Origin: Mogibacterium neglectum
Lineage (GTDB): Bacteria; Bacillota; Clostridia; Peptostreptococcales; Anaerovoracaceae
Reading direction: 5' to 3'
NCBI RefSeq assembly: GCF_030644205.1
Contig: NZ_CP128647.1
Span: 1,054,001-1,118,000 of the forward strand
Length of the DNA stretch: 64,000 nucleotides
Shown here: piece after piece, positions 50,473 to 63,855 of the stretch
Position numbering within the stretch: position 1 is the first letter of the stretch
Layout: each line of letters starts with the position of its first letter
The notes under the pieces: generated by a model
What the model was told of the DNA's origin: nothing
Databases searched by the model: none
Seen by the model: only the letters and a program-made list of their open reading frames with translations
Program-made: the position numbers and the translations under genes

Positions 50473-51660
50473 TTAATTTGTATAGTTATCAAAATAGCCC
50501 TGAATATGTACTACAGGTGTTCCCTTATCGCCAGAACCACTTGTTAGGTCGCAAAGCGAACCGATGAGATCAGTCAGTCTACGTGGTGTAGTTCCCTCTG
50601 TCTCCATCTTACCAACAAGGTTATCATCCTTCTCCTTGATTCTAGCAGAGATTGCTTCTCTTAGCTCTTCACCACTTAGATCTTTAAAGTCATTATCAGC
50701 TAGATACTTAAGCTTAAGCTCGTTAGGTGTACCCTCAAGCCCAGGAGTGTATGCAGGTGATACTACCGGATCTGCAAGCTCCCAAATCTTACCCACTGGA
50801 TCCTTAAATGCTCCGTCACCGTAAACTAGAACCTCTACACACTTACCTGTCTTATCGAGAATTGACTTCTGAATATCTAGTACAATTTCTTCACAGCTCT
50901 CTGGGAAAAGCTTCACGCTGTCCTCTGTGCTCTTGTTGGAGCCTAGCAGTCCATACTTGCTGTTGAAACCGCTGCCATCAACTGGACCATTTAGAATCTC
51001 ATCCATGGCAAGCACTGTTGCACCAGCATCCTTTAGTATGCGTCGAGTCCTCTTTCTAGTGTGAATGTCACAGTTAATAACTCTGTCGGTGTAGTTCAAA
51101 ATCTCTGTCGCATGATTAGCGAGAACAATCTCTACTTCAGCGCCAGTTGCCTCTATAACCTCTCCGTAGTACGCGAGGTAATCTACGCCTGTAAATGGAT
51201 GCTTATTTTCTCCGAAAAGTTCACGGTACTCCTTGAGAGACATAACCTTTGAATAAGGATTGATTCCTGCCTCATCAAGCTGGTCCTCCGTGAGAAGCTG
51301 GTTACCAACCTCATCTCTTGGAAATGAAAGCATCAAAACTATTTTCTTAGCAGCCATCGATATACCGCGTAAACATACCGCAAATCTATTTCTCGACAAA
51401 ATCGGGAAGATTACCCCAATCGTATCACTTCCAAGCTTAGATTGAACGTCCTTTGCAATTGCCTCAACGCTAGCGTAGTTACCTTGACTTCTAGCAACTA
51501 CCGACTCTGTTACAGCAACAATATCTCTGTCTCTGATTTCAAACCCTTCAGCCTCTGTGGCTTCAAGTACAGAGTTAACCACAACACTTGAGATATCATC
51601 GCCTTCACGAATAATAGGACATCTAATTCCTCTTGATATCGTGCCTACTTTTCTTTCCAT
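50473..51660 (-). CDS. F420-0:gamma-glutamyl ligase (CofE)-like protein
   Basis: A 395-residue member of the CofE superfamily. The N-terminal half has RDRDIVAVTESVVARSQGNY, the family nucleotide/metal loop; further on, VEVLVYGDGAFKDPVGKIWE and VVSPAYTPGLEGTPNELKL. True CofE adds glutamate to coenzyme F420-0 in methanogens and actinobacteria; no other F420 gene was noticed here, and most Clostridia lack F420. It therefore probably ligates glutamate or another amino acid to a different acceptor. Start chosen at 51660 behind GGAG. Nfn genes lie upstream, separated by a terminator. Confidence 0.75.
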   Translation of the reverse strand: MERKVGTISRGIRCPIIREGDDISSVVVNSVLEATEAEGFEIRDRDIVAVTESVVARSQGNYASVEAIAKDVQSKLGSDTIGVIFPILSRNRFAVCLRGISMAAKKIVLMLSFPRDEVGNQLLTEDQLDEAGINPYSKVMSLKEYRELFGENKHPFTGVDYLAYYGEVIEATGAEVEIVLANHATEILNYTDRVINCDIHTRKRTRRILKDAGATVLAMDEILNGPVDGSGFNSKYGLLGSNKSTEDSVKLFPESCEEIVLDIQKSILDKTGKCVEVLVYGDGAFKDPVGKIWELADPVVSPAYTPGLEGTPNELKLKYLADNDFKDLSGEELREAISARIKEKDDNLVGKMETEGTTPRRLTDLIGSLCDLTSGSGDKGTPVVHIQGYFDNYTN

Positions 51661-51900
51661 TGTCATCTCCATCTATCTCGTTATTCTAGATTTCATCTTT
51701 TCTAATATATAGCTTATCTGTTAAACATTTAAATTTCAATAATTAATACAAAATTTGGTGAAATTATCATTAATGTTGGCTTTCAAAGTCATTTATAAGC
51801 CAACATTACGAACTTTTTTACCAAATTAGCATCATATAATACGAGAACTATAATGAATTCTAATATAATTCATACGCACTAATCGGTTGTATAATTTCAT
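51661..51900. other. Gene-free leader containing a symmetric nested inverted repeat
   Basis: Two inverted repeats share one centre (51789.5). Outer arms AATTTGGT (51752-51759) and ACCAAATT (51820-51827); inner arms AATGTTGGCTT (51772-51782) and AAGCCAACATT (51797-51807). The spacers between arms are exactly 12 bp on both sides. No gene is supported in this 240-bp stretch, which leads into the CofE-like gene. The element could be a large operator, a structured leader or the remnant of a small mobile repeat. Confidence 0.5.
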
Positions 51901-54530: not shown

Positions 54531-55568
54531 TTATAGATTATAACGCAGACTCGATTCATTGAGGTGATTTTTCATCGCCCGCGCTGCTACCTCAGGGTCA
54601 TGTGACATAATCGCTTCATAAAGGTTTTTATGCTCCACGAGGACTGCTGATATCTGCTTCGGTTCAACCATACCGGTCCCACTTACTCGCTGTAAGAAGT
54701 TTCTGATTGTTCTTAGCATAGATATAATTATTGGATTCCCCGAACATTCTGCAATACATGTATGGAAATCGATGTCCTCATCTAGTGTTTCTTTGAGAGC
54801 AACTTGTACATTATCCGAGGTATCATAACTAGCAAATGTATGCTCCATCCTATTATAGATATCGGTTAATCTGTTCAGCTTGACCTGATCTTCGCATTGT
54901 GCAGCAAGTTCAGCTGATTTAATCTCAAGAATAGTTCTTACCGTTAAGATACTATCAACTTGATCCCCATCAAGAAATAGGGACCAAGATAATGGGATGG
55001 AGAAGAAGTTAGTTTCCCGACTAGAAATATAAGTTCCTTGCCCCAGTCTGATATCAATCATTCCAAGCACGTCAAGTACCTTTAGTGATTCTCTAACTGC
55101 TGATCTCCCTACACCTAACTTCCTAGCTAGCTCTCTATCAGATTCAATCTGATCTCCACGCTTAAGCCTACCTTCAAGCATCTCGTCAGCAAAATACATA
55201 GTAAGCCTGTTCACTAGTTTGCTAATACTGCCCTTCTTTTCTATACCTCGAACTAATTCTTCGTTATCCTTATGCTCAGCAAGATATTTTTCTATCTCTT
55301 TGATAAATTCATCCGTGCTCAGCGAGAATAACATCGTATCGATTTGGAGCTTTGTACATACTGAGCTAACGACCTCATTGACACGCTCTCCTCCCCTTGA
55401 TTCTAGGTTGGAGAGTGTGGCAATGCTCATCGATGGTTTATTGTCGCTATTTGATAAAAAGTAATCTATAAATTCCTTTTGTGTCATCTTTAGCGCACGT
55501 CTCAGTTGTCTAACGTTTTTCCTTTTGAAGGCAGAATTATATCTACCATCCACCATAGCCTTCACCAT
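54531..55568 (-). CDS. XRE-GntR/FCD hybrid transcription regulator
   Basis: A 345-residue regulator with two DNA-binding domains. Residues about 17-82 look like an XRE/Cro helix-turn-helix (VRQLRRALKMTQKEFIDYF, SIATLSNLESRGG). Residues 117-184 are a GntR winged helix (ESDRELARKLGVGRSAVRES, LGMIDIRLGQGTYIS). Residues 207-335 are an FCD ligand domain with metal-site residues (DIDFHTCIAECSGNP, VEHKNLYEAI). FadR-type proteins normally have only the last two. It is the last gene of the ureide operon, 12 bp after allC, so it probably senses a pathway intermediate. A start at the ATG four codons later is also possible. Confidence 0.85.
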   Translation of the reverse strand: MVKAMVDGRYNSAFKRKNVRQLRRALKMTQKEFIDYFLSNSDNKPSMSIATLSNLESRGGERVNEVVSSVCTKLQIDTMLFSLSTDEFIKEIEKYLAEHKDNEELVRGIEKKGSISKLVNRLTMYFADEMLEGRLKRGDQIESDRELARKLGVGRSAVRESLKVLDVLGMIDIRLGQGTYISSRETNFFSIPLSWSLFLDGDQVDSILTVRTILEIKSAELAAQCEDQVKLNRLTDIYNRMEHTFASYDTSDNVQVALKETLDEDIDFHTCIAECSGNPIIISMLRTIRNFLQRVSGTGMVEPKQISAVLVEHKNLYEAIMSHDPEVAARAMKNHLNESSLRYNL

Positions 55569-55580
55569 CCATTATTAATA

Positions 55581-56822
55581 TTACTTGTTCAATAAATCTG
55601 CAATCAGGTCTGTCATCAGTACCGAAGCTTTAGCAAGATCGCTATACTTACTGAATTCAACTGGTGTGTGACTTCTTCCATCCTTACTAGGCACAAACAC
55701 CATTACAGTAGGTAGCTGCTGACCGATTTCAAGGGAGTCATGACCTGCTCCACTTGGCATTCTCATGTACGAGAAACCATGTGTTTTACACGAGGTCTCA
55801 AGCTTATCTAGCATACTCTTGTTAAGTTCAACTGGTGTGATAACAAGTTTTGTATCAATCTTAAATGATCCACCCATTATCTTGCACTCACGTGCTAATG
55901 CCACTTTAATCCTATTTGCAATATCATTTATATTGTCATTGTTCATTGAGCGAATGTCAACAGTAAATTCAACCTCTTCGGCTACGATATTCATTCCACC
56001 ATTAGGAACCTTAATCAGTCCAACAGTTGCAACCGTACCATCCGCTTTTTCTCTAGCCCAATCAGCAATCTTGGATATTACCTTTGCTGCTGTATCTGCT
56101 GCATCAAGCCTCATATCCATCGGTGTTGTACCAGCGTGGTCAGCTCTTCCATATACCTTGACCATATACCTCTGAATTCCAACAATTCCAGTAACTAGAC
56201 CAATTTCAATATTCTTTTGATCCAGTACTGGTCCCTGTTCGATATGAGCCTCTACAAAGTTTCCAATAGATCCTTCTGTCCATGCAGCATCCTCAATCTT
56301 ATCTGGATCAAGTCCATATGCTCTCATTGCCTCAGCAATAGTGACACCGTCTATATCGGAAAACTGTCTGGTGTATTCCGCATTTCTATGTCCTAGAATA
56401 GCACCTGAACCAAAATAGCCAGTACCAAACCTCATTCCTTCCTCATCCATGAAACCGATTACAACAAGGTCTCTCTTGTGCTCAAGCTTCATCTCAACAA
56501 TCTGCCTTGCAACTTCAAGCGAGCAAACTACTCCACCGATACCATCATAATTTCCACCATGTAGTACTGAATCGACATGTGAGCCTGTCATTACACAAGG
56601 TAGAGATGAATCTGTTCCTCTAAGAATTCCGTAGACATTCCCAGCAGCGTCTTCCTTAACCTCGAGACCTATTTCCTCCATCTCTTTTCTGAGATAATCA
56701 ACTACTTCGCGAGTCTCCTTTGTAAAAGGAAGTCTAGTACAGCCTGCATCAGGTGTAGAAGTAAATCTTTTTAGATACTCTAGGTTCTGAGCAATTCTTC
56801 CTGTTATCATTTCAATTTCCAT
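55581..56822 (-). CDS. allC: Allantoate amidohydrolase
   Basis: A 413-residue M20-family zinc amidohydrolase. Metal motifs: GSHVDSVLHGGNYDGIGGVV, GFMDEEGMRFGTGYFGSGA and the C-terminal PSGAGHDSLEI. EAHIEQGPVLDQKNIEIG is the amidohydrolase/hydantoinase-group signature. Family alternatives are N-carbamoyl-L-amino-acid hydrolase and ureidoglycolate hydrolase; the allE/allD/fdrA context points to allantoate, which it converts to ureidoglycine, ammonia and CO2. GGAGG precedes the ATG. Confidence 0.88.
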   Translation of the reverse strand: MEIEMITGRIAQNLEYLKRFTSTPDAGCTRLPFTKETREVVDYLRKEMEEIGLEVKEDAAGNVYGILRGTDSSLPCVMTGSHVDSVLHGGNYDGIGGVVCSLEVARQIVEMKLEHKRDLVVIGFMDEEGMRFGTGYFGSGAILGHRNAEYTRQFSDIDGVTIAEAMRAYGLDPDKIEDAAWTEGSIGNFVEAHIEQGPVLDQKNIEIGLVTGIVGIQRYMVKVYGRADHAGTTPMDMRLDAADTAAKVISKIADWAREKADGTVATVGLIKVPNGGMNIVAEEVEFTVDIRSMNNDNINDIANRIKVALARECKIMGGSFKIDTKLVITPVELNKSMLDKLETSCKTHGFSYMRMPSGAGHDSLEIGQQLPTVMVFVPSKDGRSHTPVEFSKYSDLAKASVLMTDLIADLLNK

Positions 56823-57044: not shown

Positions 57045-58655
57045 CTATATTCCAAATACTGTGAACAAGAAAGCACCGATTAATATCGTTGCTGGAATTG
57101 TTATAGCGAGTAAAATCTTAAGCACTTCACCCTCTTTGCCGAGAATATTCGCCGTAGTCGTGCCTAAAATAATTTTACTTGGACTAACTGCAGCACCAAT
57201 AGCACCACCTGAAGTCTGAGCACCGAGTACTCCTGAAGTAGAAACATGAAGTAAATTAGCAGTAGTGACCTGGAATCCGCCAAATAATATATTTGAACTC
57301 ATATTGCTAGCCGTCATGAATGTTCCGAGAAGACCAACAAACGGAGCGAGTAGCAGGTACTTGCTTCCGAGTACATTTGCAATTCCCTGTGAAAGAACTA
57401 TTGTCTGACCAGTGCCACCCATTATCTTTGACATTATAACAAGTCCTATTACTGCCATTCCTGAAGGCATGGTCATAGAAATAGAATTTGCAAATGCAGT
57501 TTTTATGCCCCCTTCCTTTATCCATTCCTTTTTCTTGTAATACGCAAGCGCTATTATGGCAGCAAGAAAAAGAAACATGCTAGCCTGTGTAAATATCGCA
57601 ATTGGCGAATAATTGTCACTGCTCATGTTTACAATTCCGTATCCCGTACGTGTTTCTGGAACTGTGATGCCTATCTTAAATTGGCCAAGAGCTTCATTAA
57701 CAGGCTTTATAGCTAGAACTGCAATCGTCATAGCTGATAAAAGCAAATATGGAAGGAATGCCTGAAATAGTGTCATATCAGGAATTTCACCTTCAGCTTT
57801 ATCGCTTCTTTCGGTTCTGTCCATGATTGGAGACTCTTCGATTTTCCAATCAGTATTATAGAGCCTCATCCTGCCGAGAAGCATAACTATAACAAGAGCT
57901 AAAACCGCAGGAATAAAGTTACTCAGCGTCGTATTAATCTGGCTGAGAACTAGTTGTCCGCCTCCTCCAACAAGTGTCAGAATAAGAACAGCGGGAAATG
58001 CCTTGCGAACAGCTCTGCCTTTACCATAGAACCAGCAAATAATACCTCCTGTAACAAGATTCCATGCTAACAGAAATACCGCTGCCCAAAAAGCTGCCTT
58101 AAAATACTCATCACTTCCAGCTTTAATTCCAGCAGAATCGGCAAGTGCATCCCACGCTGCTCCCAATGTGCCAAAGGTATTTCCCCATGCCTGGCCTAGA
58201 AGCGAGATTGTAACAGCATATATTGGTCTTACACCTATTCCTATTAATAGCGGTGCTCCAACTGCAACTGGAACCCCAAATCCAGTAATTCCTTGTAAGA
58301 AACTTACAAATACCCAACCGAGAGCTAATATCAGCAGTAGCTCATTTGGAATGAGCTTGCTAAGCTCATTTTTGATCACAAGAAAAGCGTTCGCTTCTTG
58401 ACCTGCTTGATATAGTAATATCGCCGTCCAGATGATTAAAAGTATTACCAAAGAACTCCATACACCTTTTGCACTCTCAACGGCAACAAGATTGGCTGGC
58501 GCTTTGTAAAACGTCATTGCAGATACAATTGTTACAATCAATCCAACTGGAGCAGCTTCAGTAGCACCCCAGCGGAATTTGATCATTAATACGATTAATA
58601 CGATGATTGGCAAGATAGCCATGCCCCACATCGCAAAATTAACAGGTATGTTCAT
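57045..58655 (-). CDS. Lactate permease (LctP) family transporter
   Basis: A 536-residue carrier with about 13 helices. LQGITGFGVPVAVGAPLLIG, LGQAWGNTFGTLGAAWDAL and ASNMSSNILFGGFQV are LctP signatures. LctP proteins move lactate, glycolate and similar 2-hydroxy acids. Within the ureide operon the cargo is more likely a pathway acid: uptake of allantoate or ureidoglycolate, or release of oxamate, which is a close structural analogue of lactate/pyruvate. The ATG at 58655 follows AGGAG; the TTG at 58688 is upstream of that site. Confidence 0.88.
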   Translation of the reverse strand: MNIPVNFAMWGMAILPIIVLIVLMIKFRWGATEAAPVGLIVTIVSAMTFYKAPANLVAVESAKGVWSSLVILLIIWTAILLYQAGQEANAFLVIKNELSKLIPNELLLILALGWVFVSFLQGITGFGVPVAVGAPLLIGIGVRPIYAVTISLLGQAWGNTFGTLGAAWDALADSAGIKAGSDEYFKAAFWAAVFLLAWNLVTGGIICWFYGKGRAVRKAFPAVLILTLVGGGGQLVLSQINTTLSNFIPAVLALVIVMLLGRMRLYNTDWKIEESPIMDRTERSDKAEGEIPDMTLFQAFLPYLLLSAMTIAVLAIKPVNEALGQFKIGITVPETRTGYGIVNMSSDNYSPIAIFTQASMFLFLAAIIALAYYKKKEWIKEGGIKTAFANSISMTMPSGMAVIGLVIMSKIMGGTGQTIVLSQGIANVLGSKYLLLAPFVGLLGTFMTASNMSSNILFGGFQVTTANLLHVSTSGVLGAQTSGGAIGAAVSPSKIILGTTTANILGKEGEVLKILLAITIPATILIGAFLFTVFGI

Positions 58656-58707
58656 TTTCTTAATAACTCCTATGAATTTTACGGACAACTATTTTATACG
58701 TGATGAA

Positions 58708-59640
58708 CTATTTATGAATAACCGTTCCCGTCTCTCCGTTTATACCTTCTTTAGCTTTCTCTAGCAGTGTGATAAGCGCATTTCTGCCTTCTCCAGATTC
58801 TGCAAAGCGAATAGCCGCTTCAACCTTAGGTAGCATTGAACCTTTTGCAAACTGATCCTCAGCAATGTACTGTTTAGCCTGATCAATTGAAAGATCTGAT
58901 AACCATTCCTGGTTCTCCTTGCCGAAGTTGATGGCAACCTTTTCTACAGCTGTAAGAATTACGAGATAATCAGCCCCAATCTCCCTTGCAAGAAGACTTG
59001 AAGCGTTATCCTTATCTATTACAGCCTCTGCTCCAACGAGTTTACCACCTTCGTCAAACACTGGAATTCCACCACCTCCACAAGTGATTACAACATGACC
59101 TGCTTCAGCAAGTGTTTTGATAGTTCCTAGTTCGCAGATTCTTAATGGCATTGGTGATGCAACCACCTTGCGGTAACCTCTGCCAGAGTCTTCAACTACT
59201 GAGACACCCTGTGCAACAAGCTTATCTGCTTCTTCCTTAGTCATAAAGCTTCCAATCGGTTTAGTCGGATTCTTAAATGCTTCATCAGCAGGATCAACGA
59301 GTGTCTGTGAGATAATCGATGATACCTTCTTATCCATTCCTCTCTTCTTAAGCTCGTATTTTATTGCGTTCTGAAGGTCGATTGCAATGTATCCCTGTGA
59401 CATAGCAACACTTGTAGGTAGCGGAACCGCACCATATCCATGGTGTGTAGCTGCAAGAGCATCCATTGCATTCTGAATCATTCCAACCTGAGGTCCATTT
59501 CCGTGTGTAACTATCAGGTCATGACCTTCAGCAATCAAATCAACGATTACTTCCGCAGTATGAGCAACAGCTTCACGCTGCTCATCAACTGTGTTACCGA
59601 GTGCGTTTCCGCCTAGTGCGATAACAATCTTCTTTGCCAT
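58708..59640 (-). CDS. arcC: Carbamate kinase
   Basis: A 310-residue amino acid kinase-fold enzyme: KIVIALGGNALGN at the start, THGNGPQVGMIQN, and TCGGGGIPVFDEGGKLVGAE for the nucleotide and carbamate sites. It converts carbamoyl phosphate and ADP to ATP, CO2 and ammonia. Here carbamoyl phosphate should come from oxalurate, not from ornithine; no arcA or arcB is present. This would be the operon's substrate-level ATP step, equivalent to AllK of E. coli. Confidence 0.95.
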   Translation of the reverse strand: MAKKIVIALGGNALGNTVDEQREAVAHTAEVIVDLIAEGHDLIVTHGNGPQVGMIQNAMDALAATHHGYGAVPLPTSVAMSQGYIAIDLQNAIKYELKKRGMDKKVSSIISQTLVDPADEAFKNPTKPIGSFMTKEEADKLVAQGVSVVEDSGRGYRKVVASPMPLRICELGTIKTLAEAGHVVITCGGGGIPVFDEGGKLVGAEAVIDKDNASSLLAREIGADYLVILTAVEKVAINFGKENQEWLSDLSIDQAKQYIAEDQFAKGSMLPKVEAAIRFAESGEGRNALITLLEKAKEGINGETGTVIHK

Positions 59641-59731: not shown

Positions 59732-62700
59732 CTAGAAACCAAGCTTCTTTGCATACGCAAGAACTGCTTTTTCAAATGCCTCAATTGGTGGGTGCACTGT
59801 TCCGGCACCGATCTGACCAAATCCCGCAATCTTGTGAGCAATACCTGTATTGATTACAGGAGTGATTCCCTTTTCAACGACAAGTCTTGCGTCGATTCCT
59901 AGGCAGGTACCAGTGAAATTCCAATTTGGAATTATATAATTAGGGTTTCTATCGATTGTGATCTCTGTCATCTCATTTGATGTATTTAGAGCATCCTCGT
60001 ATCCCCCAGCACCAACAAATCTTGTTACAGCTGGTGCAGCAATCATAGCCATACCACCAACTCCAACGGTTTCTGTAATAGCGCTATCACCGATATCTGG
60101 GCACGCATCTTCACCGTCATATCCTGTAAAGTAGAGTCCCTGAGGTGTATTAACTGGTCCAGTGAACCACTCATCTCCCATACCTGCGATACGGATTCCG
60201 AAATTTACACCATTTCTGCACATTGCAGTTACTACAGTTCCTTCTGTAAGTCTTCTAGCTCCATCCATAATTGACTTTCCTGTAGCCATCATTATATTGA
60301 GGAAGAACTGATCTGTATCAGACAGGAACTTGATTACCTGAGACTTTTCATCCTCTGGCATATCCATATCAGTGATTATCGGTGCCATTTCCTTTAGGAA
60401 GCATAGAGAAGCAGCGATATTTCTCTGGTGGAATTCATCACCCATAGCAATCGCCTTAGCAATTAATGGATTAACATTCAGTCCACCTTCAATGCTTCTT
60501 ATAGCTCTTCCGAGGGTTGGACCTAGAACATCTCTCATCCATCTTAGTCTGTTTACAACCTCTTCTGAGTATGCACCGAATCTAAGAACCTTTCCTATTC
60601 CTTCGTTCATCTGGCAGTATGCATAATTACCATCAGTTTCGTTCTGAACTACGAACACTGGCATATGCTGAGTAGTAATTCCTCCCATAGGTCCTACTGC
60701 ATTACAGTGGTGACAAGGAATGAACTTAATTTCACCAGACTCAAGGAGCTTACGCGCATCAGCTTCATTATCTGCCCACTCTTCGAACAATACTGCACCT
60801 ACACAAGAGCCCTGTACTGTAGCAGGCATATCCTTATACTCAATAGGAGGACCAGCGTGAAGTATTACTCTTCCATTGTTCTCGTTGAGCTCTGAAATAA
60901 CAGTCATAGCTGGAACATTATCCTTCAGAACTGGCTGTGCAGCTACAACCTTAGCGATAACCTTGCGGTTTGCTTCGTCGATATCAAAGCCCTCGTAGTT
61001 TCTGAGGAAGTTAAGAGCCTTAATGAGCTCAATGTTTCCTCCTGCTGGTGGCATCCAATCATATTGAACTACATCGCATCCAAACTTAGCTGTAACTTCT
61101 GCAAAGCTCTTAAGACCGATGTTAATTACCTTTGGCTTGTGTGAAAGCATCGATAAAAGCTTTTCCGAAGGCTCAGCTGGAGTAAATTCTTTTACTTCCT
61201 TAGGTCTTGTTTCTTTTGGCTCCTCAGTGAATTTATATCCTACAGCTTCGATAGCAATCTCAACGGCTAGCTTGTTAGTCTCCGCTACGATTACGCCTGC
61301 ATCCTGAAGCTTCTTAACAGATTCGTCATAACCCTGATAATCATTTCTTGTTCCGCAAACCTCTGCTACGAAGAAAATTTCTCTATTCTGAGATTTAGCC
61401 TTATTCTTTAATGTCTCAACAGCCGGAATAAGAGCGCCAGCCATATCGTCATGAGAACCATATCCTAGAACAACATCGAATAGGATTACACCTGTGCTAG
61501 GGTCGTCCATAGCCTCTTCCATGCACTCCACTCTCTTTGTAGGATCAGTCATAGGGTGTGGCTTGCCCTGAGTATACATGTCATCGCCTAGGTCGATTAC
61601 AACGTGGCCATCGTGATTTAGCTTAAATCCATCTGCATAAGTATTATCAGTAATCTTAAGGGCATCCTTAATCATCATAGCAGCCTCGCCTGCCAATGTA
61701 CCGCCGGAGTAATACGCTTTGATTGTCTTCTTATCTTCAGGCTTGAAAAACTTAGACCTGTCGCAATCAACAGTCCCTTCAGCCACTTTCTGGCCTCTTA
61801 CTAAGCTCACTGCAAGACGAGCACACTCATCAAGTGTATAAGTCTGATACAGACCTTCTTCGTAATATTCTGGCTTCTCACCTAGGAATAAGCAAACTAC
61901 AGGCTTACTATAAACGCTAAGTCTTGCTGCAATCTTGTCTCTTACTGACTTTGCTGGTGGTTTAGAGATAACAACGAGCACCTTGACTGTCTGATCCTTT
62001 TCCATAGCATCGATGACATCCATCATAGTGGTACCGCCAACTTCTTCAGAGAGGTCACGTCCACCAGTGCCGATAGCATTTGTTACACCCTCACCCAGTC
62101 TATCGATAATAGTTGTGAGCTCCTGAATACCCGTTCCAGAAGCACCAATGATGCCAATTGATCCAGGATTTACAGTGTTTGTAAATGCAATTGGCACACT
62201 CTGAATGATTCCCGTTCCACAGTCTGGACCCATAACCACGAGACCTTTCTCGTGAGCCTTATCCTTGATCTTCTTCTCATCCTCAATTGTTACATTGTCG
62301 GAGAACATGAATACATTCATGCCCTCGTCGAGAGCTCTATCTGCCTCAAGTGCAGCGTAAGCTCCTGGAATCGAGATTACTGCTAGGTTAGCATCTGGCA
62401 TCTGCTTAAGCGCCTGATCCCAGCTCTTTGCTGATTTATTTCCTTCGCTTTTTTTATCAGCATTTGCTTCCTTTGCAAAGTACTCGTCAACCTTATCCAT
62501 AAGCGCAGCGAGCACGCTCTCTTCTGATACATCAGCAACAACTACCATATCGTTAGCAGTTGCGTTCATTAGCTCTTCAGTCTCAAGCCCACTCTGCTTA
62601 AAAATGTCCTTGTTAGCTGGAGTTGCCATCATGATGGATACCTTGTTTACACCATCAACTGTCGAAACCGCATTAGTAAGTAGCATTAGGGTAACAGAAT

Positions 62701-62737
62701 CATGATAACTTCCTGCTTTTACAATTGTCTTTAGCAT
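59732..62737 (-). CDS. fdrA: FdrA-YlbE fusion, oxamate carbamoyltransferase subunits
   Basis: A 1001-residue fusion. Residues 1-500 correspond to FdrA, with an acyl-CoA-synthetase-like core (VVMGPDCGTGIIQ, SIGIIGASGTGIQELTTIID, EVCGTRNDYQGYD). After a charged, Pro-rich linker (502-530), residues 535-1001 match YlbE/DUF1116 (DVVQYDWMPPAGGN, PCHHCNAVGPMGGIT, GIAHKIAGFGQIGAGTVHPP). In E. coli these are two genes reported, with ylbF, as allFGH, encoding oxamic transcarbamylase (from memory). The reaction is oxalurate plus phosphate to oxamate plus carbamoyl phosphate. No YlbF/DUF2877 gene is visible in the window; it may lie beyond the right edge. Confidence 0.9.
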   Translation of the reverse strand: MLKTIVKAGSYHDSVTLMLLTNAVSTVDGVNKVSIMMATPANKDIFKQSGLETEELMNATANDMVVVADVSEESVLAALMDKVDEYFAKEANADKKSEGNKSAKSWDQALKQMPDANLAVISIPGAYAALEADRALDEGMNVFMFSDNVTIEDEKKIKDKAHEKGLVVMGPDCGTGIIQSVPIAFTNTVNPGSIGIIGASGTGIQELTTIIDRLGEGVTNAIGTGGRDLSEEVGGTTMMDVIDAMEKDQTVKVLVVISKPPAKSVRDKIAARLSVYSKPVVCLFLGEKPEYYEEGLYQTYTLDECARLAVSLVRGQKVAEGTVDCDRSKFFKPEDKKTIKAYYSGGTLAGEAAMMIKDALKITDNTYADGFKLNHDGHVVIDLGDDMYTQGKPHPMTDPTKRVECMEEAMDDPSTGVILFDVVLGYGSHDDMAGALIPAVETLKNKAKSQNREIFFVAEVCGTRNDYQGYDESVKKLQDAGVIVAETNKLAVEIAIEAVGYKFTEEPKETRPKEVKEFTPAEPSEKLLSMLSHKPKVINIGLKSFAEVTAKFGCDVVQYDWMPPAGGNIELIKALNFLRNYEGFDIDEANRKVIAKVVAAQPVLKDNVPAMTVISELNENNGRVILHAGPPIEYKDMPATVQGSCVGAVLFEEWADNEADARKLLESGEIKFIPCHHCNAVGPMGGITTQHMPVFVVQNETDGNYAYCQMNEGIGKVLRFGAYSEEVVNRLRWMRDVLGPTLGRAIRSIEGGLNVNPLIAKAIAMGDEFHQRNIAASLCFLKEMAPIITDMDMPEDEKSQVIKFLSDTDQFFLNIMMATGKSIMDGARRLTEGTVVTAMCRNGVNFGIRIAGMGDEWFTGPVNTPQGLYFTGYDGEDACPDIGDSAITETVGVGGMAMIAAPAVTRFVGAGGYEDALNTSNEMTEITIDRNPNYIIPNWNFTGTCLGIDARLVVEKGITPVINTGIAHKIAGFGQIGAGTVHPPIEAFEKAVLAYAKKLGF

Positions 62738-62756: not shown

Positions 62757-63809
62757 TTAGTCAGCAAATCTATTCTTGTGATCATATCTATTAAAGTGAA
62801 CCGGTTCACCCTTTAAATACTCAACTAGTTCGTCTGCAACATCTAAACCACCTGTTGCATAAGCCTTTTCCATTCTATTCTTAGCTCTCTCTCCAGGGAA
62901 GTTTACCTTATCAAATCCTGGAGCAGGCTTCATTGCATCAAGTTCGTCTAGGCACTGGCTCATAGCCTTCTTGAAGGCCTCTGCACCGACAAATCTCTCT
63001 GGGTCAATTACGATATGCATCTGACCAAGTCTTCTGCCCTCTGAAAGATCGTGGTACATGGAGCTAACATGACCACCGAATGGTACACCAAGAAGAATTC
63101 CAGAGAATACATCGACGAGCATCATAAGCCCATATCCCTTAGCCCCAGCAATAGGGTTAAGAGCATTAACCTTATGCGGATCTGTAACAGGAGCACCATT
63201 CTCATCCACTGCCCAATCTGCAGGAATTTCCTCATGCTTAGATCTCTTATCTAGAATCTTTCCCCAAGCCTGAACTGTAGTAGCCATATCAAATACTATC
63301 TTTCTATCATCAGCGGTTGGAGCTGCAAATGACATAGGGTTTGTTCCGTAATATGGTTCAGCACCACCGTAAGGAACTGCCATAGGATCTGACTGACAGA
63401 ACGAAATTGCTAGTAGACCTTCATCTGCAGCCATCTCTGTGTAGTAACCAATGGATCCCGAGTGTGAAAGGTTTGCCATTCCCACAACAGCGATTCCATT
63501 CTTCTTAGCCATCTCAATAGCTTTTTCCATGCCTGCCTTAGCAACAGTAAAACCTATTCCATTATCTCCATCAAGGATTCCAGAGCATGGTCCAGTTTCC
63601 TTCCAAGTCATGTTTGGCTCAACTGTGATTCCACCTTTAGCAATTCTCTCACTATAATACTCAACTCTTACTGCACCGTGAGAATAGTAACCTCTTTCAT
63701 GAGCCCAAGTAAGAATCTCTGCTGTAGTTTCAGCGTCATCAGCATGTAGTCCCGCCTGCATGAGTTTATTTTTCATTAAGCCCTTTAATTCTTCTCTCGA
63801 TAATTTCAC
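62757..63809 (-). CDS. allD: Ureidoglycolate dehydrogenase
   Basis: A 350-residue NAD-dependent dehydrogenase of the malate/lactate (type 2) family. SHGAVRVEYYSERIAKGG, MCQSDPM-like ISFCQSDPMAVPYGGAEPYY, DMATTVQAWGKILDKRS and GAKGYGLMMLVDVFSGILLG follow E. coli AllD closely. The GTG at 63809 has GGAGG ten bases upstream and gives KLSREEL directly after Met, as in E. coli; the ATG at 63842 is rejected. Oxidises ureidoglycolate to oxalurate and makes NADH. Confidence 0.95.
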   Translation of the reverse strand: MKLSREELKGLMKNKLMQAGLHADDAETTAEILTWAHERGYYSHGAVRVEYYSERIAKGGITVEPNMTWKETGPCSGILDGDNGIGFTVAKAGMEKAIEMAKKNGIAVVGMANLSHSGSIGYYTEMAADEGLLAISFCQSDPMAVPYGGAEPYYGTNPMSFAAPTADDRKIVFDMATTVQAWGKILDKRSKHEEIPADWAVDENGAPVTDPHKVNALNPIAGAKGYGLMMLVDVFSGILLGVPFGGHVSSMYHDLSEGRRLGQMHIVIDPERFVGAEAFKKAMSQCLDELDAMKPAPGFDKVNFPGERAKNRMEKAYATGGLDVADELVEYLKGEPVHFNRYDHKNRFAD

Positions 63810-63855
63810 TTGTTTTTTTCCTCCATGAACCTGCATATACAAATTCTTTCTATAA

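Follow-up and report, generated by a model that had tools for sequence, protein, structure and literature searches.

The window analyzed in this study, a stretch of 64,000 nucleotides of Mogibacterium neglectum DNA (C1:1054001-1118000; genome of 1.75 Mb with 99.26% completeness), carries a cluster of allantoin degradation genes, in which homologs of two subunits of Escherichia coli oxamic transcarbamylase (OXTCase), AllF (FdrA) and AllG (YlbE), are encoded by a single gene, allFG. Open reading frame (ORF) reading gave an uninterrupted single frame of 1001 codons, whose parts are listed below together with the gene for the third subunit, AllH. PDB refers to the Protein Data Bank.

59732..62737, minus strand: allFG fusion gene, 1001 residues (ORF reading, Pfam, NCBIfam; fused in four relatives)
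61238..62737, minus strand: AllF (FdrA) core, residues 1-500 (Pfam, NF004760, PDB 3DMY)
61151..61237, minus strand: charged stretch inside AllF, residues 501-529 (also in the separate AllF of genomes G071 and G150)
60992..61150, minus strand: module "e", residues 530-582, N-x-G...W-x-P-x-A-G-G (profile, standalone ORFs, match to 3DMY)
59735..60982, minus strand: AllG (YlbE), residues 586-1001 (PF06545; 3CLQ alignment over 586-995)
C1:1128258-1129196, divergent, at the far end of the cluster: allH, 312 residues (PF11392 (DUF2877), 81-84 bits, cut-off 25)

Both halves of the chain were recognized well above threshold: the FdrA model NF004760 (NCBIfam) matched residues 1-578 with 699.5 bits (cut-off 433), and the AllG model PF06545 (Pfam, formerly DUF1116) matched residues 670-885 with 320 bits (cut-off 27). 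These matches bear out a first-pass annotation of the bare sequence, according to which FdrA and YlbE are joined in one 1001-residue chain with DUF1116 within residues 535-1001. Pfam further placed a CoA_binding domain at residues 191-285 and a Ligase_CoA domain at residues 342-495 of the AllF part. In a PDB sequence search, E. coli FdrA (3DMY) covered residues 83-580 of the fused chain and 3CLQ, an AllG-like protein of 421 residues titled as uncharacterized, covered residues 586-995; since the two alignments meet nearly end to end, the boundary between AllF and AllG was assigned to residues ~582-586. The only in-frame start codons within residues 541-625 were at 562 and 611, which makes a separate start of AllG at the join unlikely. 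The charged residues 502-530, which the first-pass annotation had taken for the linker, are charged as described, but the same stretch is present in the unfused AllF of G071 and G150 (it is shorter in E. coli AllF), and it lies inside AllF, ahead of the module at ~530-582; a joining role was thus wrongly assigned to it.

The first-pass annotation had seen no DUF2877 subunit in the window and left two options, a gene outside the window or a fusion working without it. A profile search of the whole genome returned one AllH-family match (83.7 bits), allH, located in the same cluster 10.3 kb past the right end of the window, which favors the former option. We also used an 80-locus sample, the best 80 of at least 429 relatives in a scan of a species-genome collection with the 1001-residue query, which contained 62 fused and 18 split loci by reading frames and is biased toward fused or in-frame loci, because selection, apparently by tblastn match, favors matches crossing the join. 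AllH lay within the fetched stretch in 44 of the 62 fused loci, and whole-genome searches of the other 18 fused genomes detected it in 17 (one match each), the exception, L085, being a metagenome-assembled genome. An AllH-family gene therefore accompanied 61 of 62 fused genomes, these being family-level matches in which AllH of OXTCase and the YahE-type paralogue are not distinguished; the fusion does not replace AllH in this sample, and the option that it works without AllH is unsupported. Entries of ~312 residues from an iterated AllH profile were, in those checked, carbamate kinases and were dropped; the counts come from a repeated profile run excluding kinase hits, by which a joined AllH-kinase frame was excluded as well. 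This frame, L112:13084-14850 of Listeria booriae, contains AllH and carbamate kinase (AllK) in 588 residues, and the matching region of L. riparia (L111) is interrupted. AllH of M. neglectum had no PDB sequence match at E 1.

The join of AllF and AllG carries a conserved module of ~50 residues, e. With a profile built on residues 528-582, a search of all stop-to-stop frames of at least 35 codons in 2.34 Mb of loci (with some overlap) gave 147 matches in 146 loci, the weakest with an E value of 2.7e-12. Before counting, 25 loci were set aside: 24 duplicates or flanks of kept loci, and L011 from genome G051, which has no other locus counted. Module e was present in all 123 loci with both an AllF-family (F) and an AllG-family (G) part, some of which come from one genome (e.g. 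L037 and L060) while other genomes may coincide. Its gene boundaries differed: F, e, and G formed one chain in 73 loci; e was joined to F and followed by a separate G in 24 (including E. coli AllF/AllG); e was joined to the N-terminus of G in 4 (E. coli YahF/YahG, G239 twice, and G130); and F, e, and G were three genes in 22. In the last group, the standalone ORF had 56-64 codons in 21 of 22 loci (it was longer in L017), with ATG as the start codon in 21 and TTG in L059 (starts chosen by script), and the match to a ribosome-binding site upstream comprised 5-6 of 6 consensus bases in 14 and a weak 4 of 6 in 8. Ratios of nonsynonymous to synonymous differences were 0.05-0.39 (uncorrected; seven chosen pairs, two of them near synonymous saturation), a range to be expected for a translated gene. 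Neither three standalone microproteins nor the fused chain gave a Pfam match over the cut-off in e; in NCBIfam, standalone e matched nothing but the final 50 residues of the FdrA model, with a score under its cut-off, and one standalone e searched against the PDB matched only residues 428-474 of 3DMY. Among plasmid records, 61 matched e, and the 20 listed have it under DUF1116 or FdrA genes, or under no listed gene. One genome, that of Psychrobacillus antarcticus, seemingly has two sets, as an additional F gene and an additional e match were found in the region of L139:22903.

A 44-row tree built from the F and G cores, with e removed (quick IQ-TREE; rows thinned at 82% identity, midpoint root, L017 and L059 left out because of their long branches), divided the family into two clades, that of E. 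coli AllFG (28 rows), which includes the fused chain, and that of YahFG (16 rows), the branch having 100% support in the Shimodaira-Hasegawa-like approximate likelihood ratio test (SH-aLRT). Module e was always joined to F in the former and never in the latter. In our view, e most likely takes part in the function of the enzyme, at the AllF/AllG contact or in the active site. It is possible, but rather doubtful, that e is a mere structural tail stabilizing the AllF dimer, with no catalytic or bridging role and a place between F and G that reflects inherited order: e does belong to the crystallized chain of FdrA (3DMY), which PMC11326118 describes as a homodimer, but it is attached to G instead of F in 4 of the 123 loci and free in 22, and the residues corresponding to N539, G541, W561, P563, and G567 were invariant in 110 of 110 distinct e sequences (profile alignment). 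Furthermore, standalone e lies between F and G in 20 of 22 loci, but before F in L017 and, with G preceding F, after F in L059; its retention in these two indicates that e travels with the enzyme even under a changed gene order. A role at the contact or active site is preferred, and we think it reasonably probable that OXTCase-type enzymes are four-part systems (F-e-G-H, H being the AllH family) in which e is indispensable for function and most likely located at the AllF/AllG active site, so that many YahFG-type systems would possess a fourth, essential small gene. This module, for which each of the four possible gene arrangements occurs, is a more interesting result than the fusion itself.

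On the minus strand, the first half of the cluster consists of an allantoinase gene, an NCS1-type permease gene, a second allantoinase gene, a second NCS1-type permease gene, and four non-pathway genes; the second half consists of allE, allD, allFG, allK, an LctP-family permease gene, an allC-like gene, and a GntR/FCD regulator gene; allH is divergent, at the far end. The two allantoinases (allB) scored 409.6 and 385.7 bits against TIGR03178 (cut-off 357.85), and allE 332 bits against TIGR03214 (cut-off 200). The genes around allFG are as follows:

62757..63842, minus strand: allD, ureidoglycolate dehydrogenase (TIGR03175, 534.8 bits, cut-off 496.2)
58708..59640, minus strand: allK, carbamate kinase (TIGR00746, 360.8 bits, cut-off 358.25)
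57045..58688, minus strand: LctP-family permease (PF02652, 233 bits)
55581..56822, minus strand: allC-like allantoate amidohydrolase (NF006771, a subfamily model, 440.8 bits, cut-off 399)
54531..55568, minus strand: putative GntR/FCD regulator of the cluster (PF07729, PF00392; role suggested by position)

The start of allD is probably near 63809 because the models begin at residue 12 of the frame. The GntR/FCD regulator occupies the same cluster end in many fused relatives among those listed. The LctP-family permease did not reach the cut-off of the lctP subfamily and fell far short of those for L-lactate and glycolate permeases; in the 80-locus sample, 47 of the 62 fused loci and none of the 18 split loci had it, some loci without it being cut short, and the labelled order allK-LctP-allC was seen 40 times. 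Oxamate resembles lactate and pyruvate, and for this reason we would guess that the permease is a candidate oxamate exporter. One NCS1-type permease (L002:13481-14560) has 359 residues against 453 in the near relatives L020, L022, and L057, and may be shortened; the product of 50473-51672, near the cluster, matches PF01996, the F420-0:gamma-glutamyl ligase family. In a sibling of the same genus (G001, locus L025), allFG is found only in pieces, as apparently are allC and allE, suggesting that the allantoin pathway is decaying there, and the allD and regulator frames look whole.

From the domains, the clade, and the genes around it, we infer, with a rough probability of 0.85, that the chain comprises two of the three known OXTCase subunits with e at the join, and that together with the separate AllH it most likely splits oxalurate. 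In E. coli, OXTCase requires allF, allG, and allH for the conversion of oxalurate and phosphate to oxamate and carbamoyl phosphate, which was assayed in the reverse direction (PMC11326118). The fused AllFG with AllH would likewise convert oxalurate and phosphate to carbamoyl phosphate and oxamate; the neighboring carbamate kinase would pass the phosphate of carbamoyl phosphate to ADP, giving ATP, ammonia, and CO2, and the LctP-family permease may carry oxamate out. In the succinyl-CoA-synthetase family (CoA, coenzyme A), phosphate attacks the acyl group and then passes to a histidine. The predicted reaction would correspond to the acyl-phosphate half of this chemistry, with phosphate attacking the carbamoyl carbon and oxamate leaving in the place of CoA, and would involve no phospho-histidine step on AllFGH: no histidine aligned with that of the SucD GHAGA motif in 5 of 5 AllF/YahF rows, in a weak alignment with 21-24% identity. 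The fusion would also hold AllF and AllG at 1:1, and its repeated appearance in separate lineages (see below) fits a direct 1:1 contact; in E. coli, the amounts of AllF and AllG were similar on a gel (PMC11326118).

Since F, e, G, and H are common to the YahFG-type paralogues, the substrate does not follow from these parts alone, and the chain might be a carbamoyltransferase of the same kind acting on another ureido compound, like the uncharacterized YahE/F/G paralogues; this is improbable, because the chain belongs to the clade of E. coli AllFG and its gene lies in a cluster with allB, allC-like, allD, allE, and allK genes. Several points weigh against oxalurate cleavage by a 1:1 enzyme, the reading that we retain. 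The AllC-like protein scored under the AllC equivalog cut-off (NCBIfam), and both NCS1-type permeases scored below the allantoin-permease cut-offs. AllH of this genome shared only 18-49% identity with the 47 further AllH rows in the alignment, the E. coli AllFG row of the 44-row tree was flagged for unusual residue composition, and the SucD alignment is weak, as given above. Western blotting in E. coli disagreed with equal amounts of AllF and AllG (PMC11326118), and no enzyme assay of any fused form was found in the literature covered.

The probability that an error in sequencing or assembly, or a frameshift, created the fusion, a concern raised by the first-pass annotation, is practically nil, because the same fused frame is kept in four close relatives (G003, 94%; G035, 89%; G002, 87%; G261, 96% identity; whole-genome searches) and in 62 of the 80 loci, a set that has some genomes in common with these relatives (M. 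timidum and B. intestinalis among them), and a separate AllG start at the join is unlikely. The nearest named records among the best 80 listed, Baileyella intestinalis (96%) and Mogibacterium timidum (94%), are both fused. Because the selection bias inflates the fused share of the 80-locus sample, a second tally was made from searches listing every matching genome regardless of frame (overlapping samples of 393, 391, 398, and 345 genomes; limit of ~64% AllG identity): among 19 genomes with a close AllG, that of M. neglectum included, 13 were fused, 5 were split, and 1 was cut by a contig end, the F part itself being cut by the stretch end in several; the fused G002 lies outside these samples. 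Changes between fused and separate forms numbered at least 4 in a 107-row FastTree tree of the same cores, also with e removed, 3 of them forced by well-supported branches, and at least 3 in the 44-row tree, with 2 so forced. Fused forms were found in Anaerovoracaceae, Lachnospiraceae, Butyricicoccus, Clostridium, Enterococcus mundtii, Trichococcus, Paenibacillus radicibacter, and Propionivibrio, and split forms in E. coli, Bacillus, Psychrobacillus, Sporosarcina, Listeria, Lactobacillus, E. caccae, two other Paenibacillus species, and a Faecalicatena contorta strain. The fusion is thus a widespread form of a known enzyme.

Other apparent signals in the survey were discarded. Of 23 split loci, 19 have allG in frame with allF after its stop codon. 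Readthrough or recent fission was considered as an explanation and rejected: 18 of the 23 come from the 80-locus sample and all 18 are in frame, whereas only 2 of 6 split cases reached by other routes are (E. coli and G539 in frame; G071, G150, G085, and G103 out), which is about chance, so that the signal is an artefact of a selection favoring single matches that run across the join. Distant fusions suggested by open-frame values near 1000 in G042, G043, and G038 turned out on ORF reading to be separate F and G genes. Fused AllFG was also seen in lactic-type bacteria (L133, Trichococcus collinsii; L140, Enterococcus mundtii). In L106, a metagenome bin titled Lonepinella koalarum, it groups with Lachnospiraceae despite the Pasteurellaceae name, by mis-binning or transfer.

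Measurements of OXTCase activity date from the 1960s, but its genes were not named until 2024 (PMC11326118). In the literature covered, neither a solved mechanism nor a solved arrangement of the subunits was found, and no paper on an AllF-AllG fusion or on module e was found by title and abstract start, subscription papers and supplements being outside this scope. In the parts of the texts that were available, "fusion" refers to lacZ reporters in PMC11326118 and PMC12535856 and to general remarks on gene fusion in PMC3364942, and does not occur in PMC12625717. The natural fusion offers a single chain of fixed 1:1 content for structure work, and the shifting place of e marks a stretch of 50 residues, in which N, G, W, P, and G are invariant, as a probable link between AllF and AllG. 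It is further predicted that YahFG-type paralogues may not be reconstituted successfully without the small gene that lies between F and G.

Among known systems, the aspartate and ornithine transcarbamylases and YgeW share the reaction class, a carbamoyl transfer involving carbamoyl phosphate, but the fused chain has no transcarbamylase Pfam domain match at E 0.01, and PMC11326118 likewise states that OXTCase has no similarity to these transcarbamylases. Succinyl-CoA synthetase (SucCD) shares the CoA_binding and Ligase_CoA domains, with a SucD-like stretch at residues ~105-287 of the fused chain. It differs in the histidine of GHAGA, the phospho-histidine motif of SucD, which by the weak alignment has no counterpart in AllF/YahF, and AllG and e matched no solved SucCD chain in the PDB sequence search. 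E. coli YahE/YahF/YahG consist of the same three families, with the carbamate-kinase-like yahI nearby, but belong to the other clade and carry e on the N-terminus of YahG. The closest likeness is to E. coli AllFGH (allFGHK operon), which has the same domains, e on the C-terminus of AllF, adjoining carbamate kinase and allD genes, and a place in the same clade. In E. coli, allH is inside the operon; in M. neglectum, it is divergent and 11.5 kb away, and an LctP-family permease gene is added. The allF and allG genes of E. coli are two genes 9 nucleotides apart and its OXTCase has three separate subunits, whereas here one gene encodes AllF and AllG as one chain, which defines the variant.

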